IMG/VR virus record: IMGVR_UViG_3300034096_000849
Coordinates: 1-56,476 of that record
DNA from: a virus
Strand: one strand, 5' to 3'
Length of the DNA: 56,476 nucleotides
Shown here: piece by piece, positions 30,475 through 46,895 of the stretch
Numbering within the stretch: the first letter of the stretch is position 1
Layout: each line of letters begins with the position of its first letter
The notes under the pieces: model-generated
What the model was told of the DNA's origin: nothing
The model's database searches: none
The model's input: only the letters and a program-made list of their open reading frames with translations
Made by a program: the position numbers and the translations under genes

Positions 30475-30760
30475 ACCGGGGGACGCGGGTGGTGTACATG
30501 CCCCCGCATCGGTTGCACCCAACCCACAGCGGCGCCCAGGACTGGTCGGCCATCTCCAGGAGCTGAGCCTCCTGGCGCTCGTCCAGGCCGGGGTGCTTCT
30601 CCCGCAGCTCCTCGAGCAGCATGTCGGGCGGGAAGCGCTGCCCCGGGTGGATGCAGACCCCGCCGCACTGGGGGCACACCCAACGCCAGGCGACGCGCAG
30701 CTCTACCTCGCCGTGAGACGGCAGCGCCTCGAACTCGCGCCGCATCTTCTCAGGATCCAC
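30458..30760 (-). CDS. Small zinc-ribbon protein
   Basis: 100 residues from GTG 30760. Two CxxC pairs (CPQCGGVC near residue 29 and CNRCGG near residue 82) could bind one zinc. It is the last gene of the leftward operon and overlaps both the tail hub gene (convergent) and the HTH gene upstream. DNA- or RNA-binding is likely but unproven. Confidence 0.65.
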   Translation of the reverse strand: MDPEKMRREFEALPSHGEVELRVAWRWVCPQCGGVCIHPGQRFPPDMLLEELREKHPGLDERQEAQLLEMADQSWAPLWVGCNRCGGMYTTRVPRFIAGR

Positions 30761-31154
30761 GCTGGCCCCCGCGCTTGCCCAGCCGGCGCAGTCTGTCCAT
30801 GACCTCCTGAGGCGGCCCGTAGCGCTCCAGGGTCCAGCCGAGAGCTGAGAGCCTGGAGATCGTGGCGCGGCTCACTCCGAGCGCGTCCGCGGCCTCCTGG
30901 TGGGTCGCACCGCCCTGGACCATCTCGCGGGCCCGCTCCACGGCCTCGCGGCTCATCCTGGACTGCTGCGGGTAGGCCGTGCCGTCGGCTGACCTCGAGG
31001 CCCGCGCGTAGTGGGTCGCGCACAGAGGGAGGTCGGTCCAGGCCCAGCCGGAGTCGGTCAGGAGCCTGACGTGGCGCCAGTGCTTGGCGGGCTGGCCGCA
31101 GGGCGGCGCGCCCGGGGTGTCGGTCCAGGCGCAGATGGAGGCGTCGCGGGGCAT
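30750..31154 (-). CDS. HTH DNA-binding protein with N-terminal Cys/His cluster
   Basis: 134 residues from ATG 31154. The C-terminal part has a helix-turn-helix, GATHQEAADALGVSRATISR, of the resolvase/Hin-type. The N-terminal half has scattered Cys/His (SICAW, APPCGQPAKHWRHV, LCATHYA), perhaps a zinc site. An in-frame ORF extends up to 31400 but it crosses a large hairpin, so the internal ATG is preferred. It overlaps the next gene by 11 bases. A regulatory role is likely. Confidence 0.65.
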   Translation of the reverse strand: MPRDASICAWTDTPGAPPCGQPAKHWRHVRLLTDSGWAWTDLPLCATHYARASRSADGTAYPQQSRMSREAVERAREMVQGGATHQEAADALGVSRATISRLSALGWTLERYGPPQEVMDRLRRLGKRGGQRGS

Positions 31155-31389
31155 GCGGGCAGCCTCGCAGGGCTGCCGCGGGGCCGCAAGGGGTGGCCCG
31201 GGATTGGGAGCGCGGGGGCATTTTCCGGCGCCGGCGAAATGGCCGCAAAAGACCGAGGCCCTGGGTTCCGTTACGGATCCCAGGGCCTCTGTTGGATGCG
31301 GCCGGCCCCCCCTTTCTTGGCGGATCGCGGGGGCTCGGCGCGGGCGTCGTTCTGGGGACCAGTCTAGCTGGTGCCCCAGTGCCAAGACC
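31155..31389. other. Intergenic region of the leftward operon
   Basis: 235 bases with no supported gene. It contains the large two-level hairpin at 31241-31303 and a CCGGCGCCGG palindrome at about 31225-31234. It separates the RHH gene from the HTH gene, so it may hold a terminator followed by a promoter for the two last genes. Confidence 0.5.
31241..31303 (-). terminator. Large two-level hairpin, likely leftward terminator or structured RNA
   Basis: An outer 7-bp stem (GGCCGCA 31241-31247 with TGCGGCC 31297-31303) encloses a 16-bp inner stem with one mismatch (31255-31270 with 31274-31289, loop TTA). In the leftward RNA, the inner stem is followed by GGUCUUUU, which is terminator-like. The additional outer stem is not usual for a simple terminator. 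Confidence 0.5.
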
Positions 31390-31587
31390 CTACTCGCCAT
31401 GCCGGGCGGCAGTCAATAGCGCCGCCAGCACCTCTTCCCGGGACGCGGACTGGAGCCCCCGAGCCGAAGCCCAGGCCTCGATCTGGGCCGCCAGCCCGGC
31501 CGGCAGGCGGACCTCCCAGCGGACCTTGGGCGCGGGCGGCGGGTCCAGGCGCGGCCGGCCGGGGCGGCGCTTGGGGGGTGTGGTCAC
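31390..31587 (-). CDS. Ribbon-helix-helix-like DNA-binding protein
   Basis: 65 residues from GTG 31587, overlapping the upstream stop (GTGA). VRWEVRLPAGLAAQIEAWA and SREEVLAALLTAA fit the strand-helix-helix pattern of Arc/MetJ/CopG-type proteins, after a basic AT-hook-like lead with RRPGRPRL. It could autoregulate this operon. Short length and high R/P content limit certainty. Confidence 0.6.
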   Translation of the reverse strand: MTTPPKRRPGRPRLDPPPAPKVRWEVRLPAGLAAQIEAWASARGLQSASREEVLAALLTAARHGE

Positions 31588-31841
31588 TGAGACACCCCCA
31601 GATCGTCTGCGCAGACGGCAGCCCATTCGGCGGGGGGCACGCTGGACATCGGCGCGGTCAGCTCCCGGTCGCAGACGTGGAGCAGCCACCGGTCAGAGAG
31701 CTGCTCCGCATAGCCGTAGCAGCCCTCGGCAAGCTCCACGCGCCAGAGCTGGACGCACTCGGGCGAGGGGGTGTAGCCAGGCTGGTCAGCGCCGCAGGGC
31801 CCCCAGGCGGAGGGCAGGTCGGTCGTGGCTTGGGTGGTCAT
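31584..31841 (-). CDS. Unknown small protein downstream of ribozyme A
   Basis: 85 residues beginning MTTQATTDLPSAWG at ATG 31841. Acidic, cysteine-containing, no known domain. Its start codon is the end of the 92-bp repeat that contains a hammerhead ribozyme, and its leader is C/A-rich with no Shine-Dalgarno sequence. After ribozyme cleavage, this gene's RNA would carry a 5' hydroxyl and a short leader. Confidence 0.6.
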   Translation of the reverse strand: MTTQATTDLPSAWGPCGADQPGYTPSPECVQLWRVELAEGCYGYAEQLSDRWLLHVCDRELTAPMSSVPPAEWAAVCADDLGVSQ

Positions 31842-31929
31842 GGCTTGGTGGGGTCTGTGGTGGTCTTGGCTTGCCTCATCAGTGCGCCGGGGGCCACCCG
31901 AGCGCAGACCGGCCGGGGCCGGTTTCGGC
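31838..31929 (-). repeat. 92-bp direct repeat, copy A (ribozyme plus leader)
   Basis: 91 of 92 bases match the copy at 32307-32398. In leftward reading it comprises the hammerhead ribozyme, then a C/A-rich leader and the ATG of the next gene. The single difference lies in the stem I loop of the ribozyme. Confidence 0.9.
31873..31929 (-). ncRNA. Type II hammerhead ribozyme A
   Basis: Read leftward, the order is GCC (stem II), GAAA, stem III hairpin CCGGCC/GGCCGG, UC, stem I hairpin UGCGC/GCGCA extended by CGGG/CCCG, CUGAUGA, GGC (stem II). All conserved core bases of a hammerhead are present: CUGAUGA, GAA plus the A15.1-U16.1 pair, and C17 at a GUC site. Predicted cleavage lies between bases 31907 and 31906. 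It begins 6 bases after the stop of the preceding gene and ends 31 bases before the next start codon. Stem II is only 3 bp, as in several natural type II forms. Confidence 0.88.
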
Positions 31930-31935
31930 GGGGGT

Positions 31936-32310
31936 TTAGGCCCCCAGGAGTTGGGTCGGGTGCGGCTGGAACCCTTGCGCCTCATATTCGGCGGCGCGGG
32001 CTGCGATCAGGCTTCGAGCAAAGTGCGCAGCCTGGTCGGCACTCGCGCACTTGAAAAGAACCCGGCCGGACTTCTGCCCAACCAGCCAGCCGCGCACCGA
32101 GTAACCCTCGCCAAGCGGCTCGACCTGGAGGCGCTGGAGGTTGGGGCTGCCCTCCCAGCGCCAGGCCTTAGCGGCTTGCACTTTGCCGGCCCAGCCGCGA
32201 GGCATAGCAAGGTCGGATGGCATGAATTGTCCGCCCTCATAAAACAGCTTGTTGACCTCGGAGAAGGCGCCGCCGATAGGGGCTTGCTCGGGAAGGGCTT
32301 GGGCGTTCAT
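31936..32310 (-). CDS. Unknown protein between the two ribozymes
   Basis: 124 residues from ATG 32310. It has aromatic and basic residues and a helical C-terminal half (ASADQAAHFARSLIAARAAE), no recognised family. Ribozyme B precedes its start and ribozyme A follows its stop, so both ends of its mRNA would be made by self-cleavage. It has a C/A-rich leader with no Shine-Dalgarno. The stop codon lies in a GGGGG-CCUAAA-CCCCC hairpin. Confidence 0.6.
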   Translation of the reverse strand: MNAQALPEQAPIGGAFSEVNKLFYEGGQFMPSDLAMPRGWAGKVQAAKAWRWEGSPNLQRLQVEPLGEGYSVRGWLVGQKSGRVLFKCASADQAAHFARSLIAARAAEYEAQGFQPHPTQLLGA

Positions 32311-32398
32311 GGCTTGGTGGGGTCTGTGGTGGTCTTGGCTTGCCTCATCAGTGCGCCGGGAGCCACCCGAGCGCAGACCGGCCGGGGCCGGTTTCGGC
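32307..32398 (-). repeat. 92-bp direct repeat, copy B (ribozyme plus leader)
   Basis: Partner of 31838-31929 with one mismatch. Its upstream edge abuts the stop codon of the gene at 32399. Confidence 0.9.
32342..32398 (-). ncRNA. Type II hammerhead ribozyme B
   Basis: Identical in all core and stem bases to ribozyme A; one C-to-U change (in RNA) is in the 5-base loop of stem I, where it does not alter pairing. Predicted cleavage lies between bases 32376 and 32375. The 5' GCC of stem II follows immediately after the UGA stop of the upstream gene, and the ATG of the next gene lies 32 bases beyond the 3' GGC. Confidence 0.88.
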
Positions 32399-32668
32399 TC
32401 AGTCGGTGCGCCGCACGTACCGGCCCTCGGAATCCACGTCGAGGGTGGCCACCAGGAACTGATAGGGGATGTAGTCGCGCTCCCGTTCGCCAGGCAGCAG
32501 GGATGCCATGAGGCGAAAGTTGTCCCGGGCAGCAACCCCACCTTCGACCAGCGTGCCCACCAGGACGCCCACAGCTTTGTGGTGCAGGCTGCCCTCAATG
32601 CGGGCCAACTGGACAGCTTGGGCGAGGGTTTGCTGGGGCAGGCAGGTGGCTTGGGCGCTGGCGTTCAT
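32399..32668 (-). CDS. Unknown first protein of the ribozyme operon
   Basis: 89 residues from ATG 32668 (MNASAQATCLPQQTLAQ). It is helical and without a known domain. Like the other genes in this operon, it has a leader ending in a C/A-rich stretch and GCC-ATG. Its stop codon touches ribozyme B. Expression probably starts from the promoter-like element at 32726-32758. Confidence 0.58.
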   Translation of the reverse strand: MNASAQATCLPQQTLAQAVQLARIEGSLHHKAVGVLVGTLVEGGVAARDNFRLMASLLPGERERDYIPYQFLVATLDVDSEGRYVRRTD

Positions 32669-32725
32669 GGCTTTGGGCTTGCTGGGGTCAGGTGGTCTGT
32701 CAGGCCGCGGCGTCAACCGCGATGG

Positions 32726-32758
32726 GAGTACCTTCGCACGGCCGCGCCGGCCAGTCAA
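32726..32758 (-). promoter_or_regulatory. Promoter-like element shared with 45161-45194
   Basis: Leftward TTGACTG, 15 bases, CGAAGGTACTC. The same two blocks, 16 bases apart, precede the rightward recombination operon. TTGACT fits a -35 box; the second block is not a consensus -10, so a special sigma factor or an operator is possible. Confidence 0.45.
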
Positions 32759-45446: not shown

Positions 45447-46895
45447 ATGCAAACCACCGAGACCGCTCCCGAGATCCGCATCGTCAACGTCGGCCCGATC
45501 CAGCGCCTGGAGATCCCGATCCCCCGAGATGGGGGAGTCGTGGTCCTCCGCGGCCACAACGGCGCGGGCAAGTCCACGGCCCTGGCCGCCGTGTCGGCCC
45601 TGGGCGGCACCGCGAGCGCCAAGGACTCGCTGACCGCTCGCTACGGCGCCAAGGAGGGCACGATCGAGGCCCCCGGCATCCGCATGCGCATCGGCCAGCG
45701 GACGACCGCCCAGGGCGACCTGGCAGTCCAACAGATCGAGGCCAGCGCCCCGGCGCGCCTGGTCGATCCCGCCATCAAGGACCCCGAGCGGGCCGATGCA
45801 GCTCGCGCCCGCGCCCTGTGCCAGATCCTCGGGATCGAGCCGCCTGTTGTGGCCTGGGGCCGCCTGCTAGCCGATCCGACCCGCATCGATGATGCGTTGG
45901 CCGGCGCCGACCGCGGCGACGCCACCGAGTGCGCCGCGCAGGTCAAGCGCTACCTGGAGTCTCAGGCCCGCACCGAGGAGACGCTGGCCGAGCGCGACAA
46001 GACCCGCGCGGAGGCTGCCCGCCTCGCAGCGAAGGACTCGATGGCTGGAGTCACGCCGTACAGCGGCGACCCGACTGCGGACGCCGTGGACGCCGCGGGC
46101 AAGCTCCGCGACCTCGAATCCCGCGTCAAGGCCGCGACCGATGCGGCGACCCAGCTCCCGGCTCTGCGCGCCCGCGTCGAGGCCATGCCTGGCCTGTCGA
46201 TCGAGGCTGCGACCGCCGCCGCAAGACATGCCGCAGTGGCCGTGGTCCTGGCCGAGGACGCTCTCCGCGAGGCGCAGCGGGTGATGGCCGAGCGCAAGAG
46301 CGCCGCGAAGGCCGCCGCCGATGCGCTGTCCCTGGCGCAGGCCCGCCACGCAATGGTCCCGCAGCTCGCGGCGCTCGAATCGGCCAGCGCGGCCATGCCG
46401 AGCCTGGACGAGCTGCAAGCGCAGCGGGCACGACTTGCCGCCGCGAAGGAGGCGATGGCCCAGCAGGCGCGGCTCGCCGATGCCGAGCGCCGCAACTCCG
46501 AGGCTGGCGAGCTGTCGGCGAGCGCCGAGAAGCACGCGCAGTCCGCCAAGGTCTACCGCGACTCGGCTGCTCAAGTCGAGCCGATGCTGTTTTCTGGCCT
46601 TCGCTCGGGCCTGGTCGAGATCCGCGATGGCCTGCTGTACGGCCGGCATCACACGCTCGGCATGGTCCGATTCGGCTCGCTGTCGCACGGCGAGCGCTGG
46701 CGCTTGGCGCTCGAACTGGTGCTCGCCCATCAGCAGCCTGGCACTGAGACGCCGATCCTCGCCGTCGCTCAAGAGGCCTGGGAAGGCCTCGATCCGAAGA
46801 ACCGCGAGGAGCTGGTCGATATCGCGCGCCGCTACCGCGTGGCGATCCTGACGGCCGAGGCTGCAACCGGCGAGCTGGCTGTTTCCCAGGCCTGA
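45447..46895 (+). CDS. SMC/RecF-like ATPase with reduced C-terminal lobe
   Basis: 482 residues. Walker A is RGHNGAGKST at residues ~34-44, followed by a long coiled coil (about residues 155-355, many EA/AR heptads), and a C-terminal ABC-type signature LSHGERWRLAL. The usual Walker B (hydrophobic-LDEP) is not evident; the equivalent is AVAQEAWEGLDPKN, with Gln-Glu instead of Asp-Glu. It resembles SbcC/RecF/RecN-type proteins. It is followed by YqaJ and Bet genes, so a role in processing DNA ends is likely. Confidence 0.75.
   Translation: MQTTETAPEIRIVNVGPIQRLEIPIPRDGGVVVLRGHNGAGKSTALAAVSALGGTASAKDSLTARYGAKEGTIEAPGIRMRIGQRTTAQGDLAVQQIEASAPARLVDPAIKDPERADAARARALCQILGIEPPVVAWGRLLADPTRIDDALAGADRGDATECAAQVKRYLESQARTEETLAERDKTRAEAARLAAKDSMAGVTPYSGDPTADAVDAAGKLRDLESRVKAATDAATQLPALRARVEAMPGLSIEAATAAARHAAVAVVLAEDALREAQRVMAERKSAAKAAADALSLAQARHAMVPQLAALESASAAMPSLDELQAQRARLAAAKEAMAQQARLADAERRNSEAGELSASAEKHAQSAKVYRDSAAQVEPMLFSGLRSGLVEIRDGLLYGRHHTLGMVRFGSLSHGERWRLALELVLAHQQPGTETPILAVAQEAWEGLDPKNREELVDIARRYRVAILTAEAATGELAVSQA

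Follow-up and report, generated by a model that had tools for sequence, protein, structure and literature searches.

What do self-cleaving ribozymes do between the genes of a phage operon? The window, a single virus record of 56,476 bases, encodes portal, head-morphogenesis and tape-measure proteins (Pfam/PHROG matches), by which it is judged to be a tailed phage. Amid its plus-strand tail genes sits a minus-strand operon that reads, in order, promoter-like stretch, gene 1, ribozyme B, gene 2, ribozyme A, genes 3 and 4, and a terminator-like hairpin:

32725 to 32758, minus strand: promoter-like region, tentatively recognized by eye, with TTGACT at 32758-32753 and GTACTCCC downstream
32676 to 32688, minus strand: leader motif ACCCCAGCAAGCC before gene 1, without a ribozyme
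32399 to 32668, minus strand: gene 1, 89 residues, no family match, 99% identical in contig L022
32333 to 32399, minus strand: type II hammerhead ribozyme B (RF02276, 44.4 bits, E 7e-6)
32296 to 32398, minus strand: copy 2 of a 103-bp direct repeat (ribozyme B, leader, start codon)
32311 to 32323, minus strand: leader motif ACCCCACCAAGCC before gene 2
31936 to 32310, minus strand: gene 2, 124 residues, no family match, N-terminal 31 residues common to contigs L124 and L125
31864 to 31930, minus strand: type II hammerhead ribozyme A (RF02276, 44.1 bits, E 8.5e-6)
31827 to 31929, minus strand: copy 1 of the 103-bp direct repeat (ribozyme A, leader, start codon)
31842 to 31854, minus strand: leader motif ACCCCACCAAGCC before gene 3
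31584 to 31841, minus strand: gene 3, an open reading frame of 85 residues, no family match
31390 to 31587, minus strand: gene 4, 65 residues, GTG start overlapping the gene 3 stop, RHH-like by eye, without a family match
31241 to 31303, minus strand: terminator-like hairpin followed by UCUUUU at the operon end (inverted repeat I1 and fold)

Genes 1 to 3 belong to no known family in Pfam, PHROGs or PADLOC, as the original prediction had held; the best match of gene 2 is DUF5768 at E 0.088, below the cut-off of that family. The RHH-like regulator assigned to gene 4 does not hold up beyond a likeness by eye, as no Pfam or PHROG family, the RHH families included, matches at E 0.01. Small proteins of other phages share with gene 2 its first 31 residues (motif FYEGGQFMP) but have other C-termini (L124:4971-5054, L125:5001-5093). 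A small helix-turn-helix protein is encoded just past the terminator-like hairpin (30750-31154, minus strand; PHROG 664, E 4.9e-9) and perhaps regulates the operon island. A consensus promoter scan found no sigma-70-type site in the operon; a promoter-like layout resembling that of the window also precedes the gene 1 homologue in L022, judged by eye. The terminator scan did not call the hairpin at the operon end, which has only a short T run; the fold of 31241-31310 reaches -46.9 kcal/mol (z -6.0). Leader motif ACCCCANCAAGCC stands immediately 5' of the ATGs of genes 1 to 3, these three being its exact copies in the window, and gene 1 carries it although no ribozyme lies upstream. Both gaps consist of a single direct repeat, the copies of which are 97% identical; a repeat had been predicted there and is present, but its length is 103 bp rather than 92 bp.

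Near-identity search with window positions 20-44 kb, a distant search with the operon and tblastn of genes 1 to 3 each returned no match among 50,697 phage records. The 10,147-bp contig L123 is identical to the window, comes from the same phage and so provides no independent case. Scanning genome contigs for a hammerhead with an AAGCC tail gave five stretches, all in MAGs of mixed taxa, and indicated no host.

Ribozymes A and B each match RF02276 (Hammerhead_II; gathering cut-off 37 bits, E-values for the whole window and Rfam) over its full length (model 1-66 of 66), and they are the sole Rfam matches in the window. The invariant core CUGAUGA, GAAA and the UH cleavage site are present in both, stems I and III are closed and stem II is open. 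Loop I pairs with the tail in a pseudoknot of 5 bp in B (UGGCU with AGCCA) and 4 bp in A. The minimum free energy structure of both gap stretches is the hammerhead secondary structure, at values ordinary for the G+C content (z -0.08 and 0.25). A structure-aware hammerhead detector (core plus three stems) found none in about 1.16 Mb of shuffled sequence, in a run that was repeated. The two operon-gap hammerheads are not chance matches, and the placement of ribozymes in the stop-to-start gaps of a small-gene operon, as originally proposed, is borne out: the first base of ribozyme B is the last base of the gene 1 stop codon.

In type II hammerheads, the stems on either side of the cut are both closed hairpins. 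The predicted cuts, read from the sequence, follow GUC at 32376/32375 in B and 31907/31906 in A. We consider it quite likely that the operon runs from one promoter-like region to the terminator-like hairpin and that its hammerheads self-cleave the polycistronic RNA, such slots in general holding a 'cut here' signal. Each ribozyme would cut 24 nt into itself as this RNA is made, so that the stop codon would stay on the upstream message; for ribozyme B, the cut would fall about 23 nt past the gene 1 stop codon. Together, the cuts would yield gene 1 on its own, gene 2 as an RNA of 469 nt, and genes 3 and 4 still joined. The upstream RNA would end in the stem III hairpin with a 2',3'-cyclic phosphate and the downstream RNA would begin with the stem I hairpin and a 5'-OH, so that both new ends would be structured, as expected from the closed hairpins that flank the cut. 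Every message would thereby retain its stop codon and start region and gain a structured end. The analysis shows the sequences, structures, spacing and orientation, together with the slot exchange described below; that cutting takes place in the infected cell, with any effect that it may have on expression, we infer.

The pairing of ribozymes around one gene, with 469 nt between the two predicted cut sites, also fits a circular RNA, in which both cuts would free gene 2 with 5'-OH and cyclic-phosphate ends joinable by a ligase such as RtcB. This is very unlikely: many loci hold a single hammerhead only, the tRNA-like element of related phages described below would not leave such ends, and Perreault et al. 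(2011), in the accessible part of their paper, sought spliced or circular products and found none (PMC3088659). The flanking of gene 2 by A and B places the locus among the clustered phage hammerheads of that study, in which at least two ribozymes surround a single gene. The design had been put forward as possibly unrecognised, an idea that has to be withdrawn: the accessible part of the same paper already describes multiple hammerheads flanking individual prophage genes and proposes processing into single-gene mRNAs, with three tandem arrangements tested in vitro and one in E. coli, where the triple hammerhead of A. tumefaciens cleaves (PMC3088659). The window shares with those clusters the type II architecture, the loop I-tail pseudoknot and the grouping of several ribozymes around single genes or short blocks. 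New here are a stop-codon spacing rule, the exchange of a gene together with its ribozyme, and the replacement of hammerheads by a tRNA-like element in related phages, which were found neither in that part of the paper (PMC3088659) nor in the portion of the open-licence PMC literature covered.

Beyond the window, a hammerhead pattern scan of viral contigs, which required GCC...GGC in stem II, returned at least 120 stretches; together with later fetches, at least 185 hammerheads in at least 119 loci passed the detector. Among the matches listed, 164 of 185 lie between co-directional genes on their own strand, and a single one has both neighbour genes opposed. Spacing was determined with a G+C-aware gene caller that regained 42 of 42 annotated stops in the phages VieEnRose and Izzy. 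Over the 185 hammerheads among the matches listed, near-identical contigs kept, the median distance is 1 nt from the stop codon to the hammerhead start and 27 nt from the hammerhead end to the next start codon, and 113 fit snugly at either side. With an earlier gene caller, a stop codon was placed 2-6 nt 5' of the GAAA core in 98 of the 185 among the matches listed. A distance of 2 nt is the practical minimum, at which the G of a TAG stop doubles as a stem II base. Hammerheads mostly begin as near the upstream stop codon as possible. Genome compaction alone could produce so tight a fit of the element in its gap.

Across 175 non-redundant hammerheads, loop I and tail form a mean of 3.82 Watson-Crick pairs in the pseudoknot, and exchanging tails among loci lowers this mean to 2.99 (sd 0.06). 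In contig L075, which repeats the plan of the window (promoter, gene, ribozyme, gene, ribozyme, gene), two hammerheads keep the pseudoknot with differing letters, GGCU/AGCC and GGUU/AACC. That the ribozymes are decay remnants carried as inactive passengers is extremely unlikely given their intact cores, a pseudoknot far above the swapped controls, and strict orientation and position.

Contig L022, an independent case, has 360 bp in common with window positions 32335-32694 at 99% identity, comprising the leader, gene 1, its stop and ribozyme B. The gene after the ribozyme differs from gene 2 of the window, and beyond the 360 bp there is one further similar stretch (70%). This pattern suggests that gene 1 and the ribozyme that follows it travel as a unit. 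No hammerhead reaches the gathering threshold in contigs L124 and L125, which hold relatives of the gene 2 N-terminus; hence there is no fixed link between the ribozyme and the gene 2 family. Near-identical copies could instead act as recombination or cassette boundaries by which phages swap or add genes, with cleavage incidental. The 97% identity of the window copies is consistent with this, as is the sharing by L022 of just leader, gene 1 and ribozyme before a different gene. Copies within VieEnRose, Izzy or phiScoe55, however, vary in sequence and keep their structure, which argues for an RNA function rather than homologous recombination, and leaves the cassette explanation unlikely.

The cultured Streptomyces phages VieEnRose and Celia (Celiavirus) each have 10 hammerheads at E up to 0.001, of which 8 and 7, respectively, exceed the Rfam cut-off, and these occupy the gaps of one small-gene operon. 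All 8 above-threshold hammerheads of VieEnRose lie in this operon at 41-49 kb, and its remaining 39.6 kb hold none at the gathering threshold. An Rfam scan of 10 loci found no hammerhead at that threshold in Rhodococcus phage Trogglehumper (L134). VieEnRose gp72 and Celia gp71 are annotated with starts that precede or fall within sub-threshold hammerheads (L133:4010-4080, L137:3541-3610); the true start codons probably lie further downstream.

A second device occupies similar gaps of the same small-gene operon in Izzy (Likavirus) and in Conan and phiScoe55 (Camvirus). In this mini tRNA-like element of about 40 nt, a 5-bp helix encloses an 11-nt linker that contains GGCA and a T stem of 6 bp capped by a TTCGAG loop. 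Structurally, it resembles an acceptor-like helix stacked on a T arm (TTCGA loop) with a GG-bearing, D-loop-like segment, features predicted to make a substrate for RNase P or RNase Z; the helix stack measures 11 bp, against the 12 of tRNA. There is no full cloverleaf with an anticodon arm, and ARAGORN called no tRNA in loci L133 and L138-L140. In Rfam, four phage loci gave two sub-threshold matches to mascRNA/menRNA (RF01684; 26.9 and 26.4 bits, cut-off 42.5) and no other match to the elements, and five element-rich contigs gave no tRNA-like match. The element appears to be undescribed within open-licence PMC papers and Rfam 15, the latter searched over 8 loci that hold it.

The tRNA-like element repeats between small genes in L138, L139, L140, L266, L267, L268 and contigs L141-L260. 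A scan with several fixed bases returned at least 120 contigs; among the matches listed, at least one element occurs in 103 of 120 scanned contigs and three or more in 37. Of 332 copies, 311 have an 11-nt linker, and co-directional genes stand on both sides of 289 of the 311 canonical copies, again among the matches listed. By blastn, one Izzy spacer matched 131 records of Streptomyces and Mycobacterium phages, counted as sequence matches only. Covariation was assessed in an alignment (A1) of 78 of the 207 distinct canonical copies, picked to differ at six or more positions. Standard pairs fill 99.8% of its pair cells, and the covariation score is 0.853, compared with 0.188 when shuffled and at most 0.152 when slid; since the detector demands paired stems, covariation in the two main helices arises partly by selection. 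The linker-internal pair 8-14, which the detector does not select, also covaries, as does the pair 15-30 between linker and T loop; the detector does not demand this second pair, but the scan pattern limited it in seed copies. GGCA and TTCGAG are invariant. A search over 26 sources found no tRNA-like element in the window, in Trogglehumper or in Xanthomonas phage AhaSv (L135), and a single irregular match in L045 was taken as chance. One element with a longer, tRNA-like D arm (L140:7986-8033) is perhaps intermediate between tRNA and the short element. Rather than sitting between annotated genes, the elements at L139:752-796 and L140:739-784 lie 5' of the promoter-like motif that precedes the first such gene. 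A viral contig (L165:7022-7096) gave a sub-threshold bacterial SSU rRNA match (27.9 bits, cut-off 50).

Comparison of homologous gaps connects the two devices. Where a Celiavirus slot holds a hammerhead, a tRNA-like element follows the homologous gene of Izzy, Conan or phiScoe55 in 15 of 21 comparisons; where the slot has no hammerhead, this is so in 0 of 7 (Fisher p 0.0014, the phages being related and the comparisons not independent). Of the six misses, three fall after the dNMP kinase gene, where no comparison showed the element; two others follow gene index 13 and one follows the OCR-like gene. Two VieEnRose genes are omitted from the slot table: index 10, because the Izzy sequence covered ends with its homologue, and index 14, which is paralogous to 13 and has the same best matches. 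If index 14 is counted, the 0 of 7 becomes 1 of 10 (p 0.0021). The homology of index 7 is weak (24-33%), and p is 0.0052 without it. The slot after index 6 was taken from Celia, its hammerheads being sub-threshold (VieEnRose record 46115-46183, 30.2 bits; Celia, 32.2 bits). Across five phages, an element is present in 45 of 56 gaps of at least 60 nt and in 1 of 59 shorter ones. Covariance models run on whole records found 10 hammerheads and no tRNA-like element each in VieEnRose and Celia; they found no hammerhead in Izzy, Conan, phiScoe55, Papyrus, Endor1 and Cborch11, with 10, 9, 11, 11, 8 and 6 tRNA-like elements, respectively. In these eight phages, the two devices are mutually exclusive per genome. 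Two gaps of similar size (L133:1701-1785, L138:1478-1568) hold neither device; each includes a stretch resembling a hairpin, with GGGTACCCG, and a third type of element may be present there.

The same slot would carry its 'cut here' signal as a hammerhead in some phages and as a mini tRNA-like element in related ones, the latter a probable target of host RNase P, RNase Z or both. The presence of two unrelated predicted cleavage signals in one slot supports the cutting of polycistronic mRNA as the function. If the tRNA-like element is cut likewise and the slot serves message separation, the 5'-OH and cyclic-phosphate ends left by a hammerhead would not be essential, and the replacement suggests as much for the 5'-OH chemistry. 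The original prediction, that cleavage separates the messages and that the 5'-OH end matters in itself, is accordingly divided. Its first part gains from the intact ribozymes, gene orientation, the stop-start fit, recurrence in many phages and slot replacement, whereas its second part is weakened, because a tRNA-like substitute would give another end chemistry.

Promoter-like motifs of the CTTGACA type stand before first genes and just 5' of some hammerheads and tRNA-like elements; with TGATAGTGT, TACCTTCGC or TGTGACAGTGTGA, such boxes recur in L133, L137, L138, L139, L140 and L268. Because a promoter-like motif lies just 5' of the element in several slots, the separation of co-transcribed genes does not account for everything. 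A ribozyme could serve the downstream gene only, as a leader insulator that trims its RNA to a uniform hairpin-plus-leader start. RiboJ is a synthetic insulator that trims upstream RNA so that messages share the same start. The distance from element to start codon is tight (median 27 nt among the matches listed), and an element right behind a promoter-like motif may give read-through and locally started RNA one shared 5' end. Against this, the element start mostly hugs the upstream stop codon, gene 1 travels with a ribozyme 3' of itself, and in the first genes of these operons (window, VieEnRose, Izzy, L022, L075) a plain leader, free of any element, runs from the promoter-like motif to the start. 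Leader insulation is a possibility of some weight, although the balance tilts away from it; cutting between genes is the reading preferred here.

Other RNA-processing systems offer parallels, taken here from the accessible parts of the cited papers. RNase P gauges the stack of T arm and acceptor from the tRNA elbow (PMC4919913). It also cuts other bacterial RNAs, polycistronic mRNAs included, and tRNA-like signals for RNA processing are known in mascRNA and in the t-elements of plants (PMC4919922). By analogy, we infer that the phage element may work like other tRNA-like RNase P or processing signals. In mitochondrial tRNA punctuation and plant mitochondrial t-elements, tRNAs or tRNA-like structures are likewise cut in polycistronic transcripts to free mRNAs; unlike these, the element of Streptomyces and Mycobacterium phages is about 40 nt, lacks an anticodon arm, is interchangeable with a self-cleaving ribozyme and is cut by prediction (PMC9181182, PMC4919922). 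RNase P acts on individual structures in bacterial operon mRNAs, whereas a repeated, dedicated element is proposed for the phages (PMC4919922). The mascRNA/menRNA family also uses a tRNA-like fold as an RNA-processing signal and is the only Rfam family that weakly matches the phage elements, but it belongs to the 3' ends of human lncRNAs, and in the scanned phage loci only two elements match it, both below threshold. HDV-like theta ribozymes of gut phages are self-cleaving, phage-borne and tied to RNA processing as well, but they are another ribozyme class, linked to tRNA processing and not to gaps between protein genes (PMC10879173).

The role of prokaryotic and phage hammerheads is called an open question in the accessible part of a review (PMC6155905). 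That a different predicted cleavage signal takes the place of the hammerhead in the same slot provides comparative evidence, independent of ribozyme chemistry, that the role lies in mRNA processing. Cultured phages are available for testing, with hammerheads in VieEnRose and Celia and tRNA-like elements in Izzy (host S. griseus), Endor1 (S. coelicolor M600) and Papyrus (M. smegmatis mc2 155). On balance, it seems reasonably probable that phages of unrelated hosts punctuate small-gene operons with exchangeable RNA-cutting modules, either a type II hammerhead or a tRNA mimic of about 40 nt without an anticodon arm that would recruit host tRNA-processing enzymes, that one or the other fills homologous gaps within one subfamily, and that selection acts on the cut between genes. 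If true, this selection for a cut between genes would answer what phage hammerheads are for.
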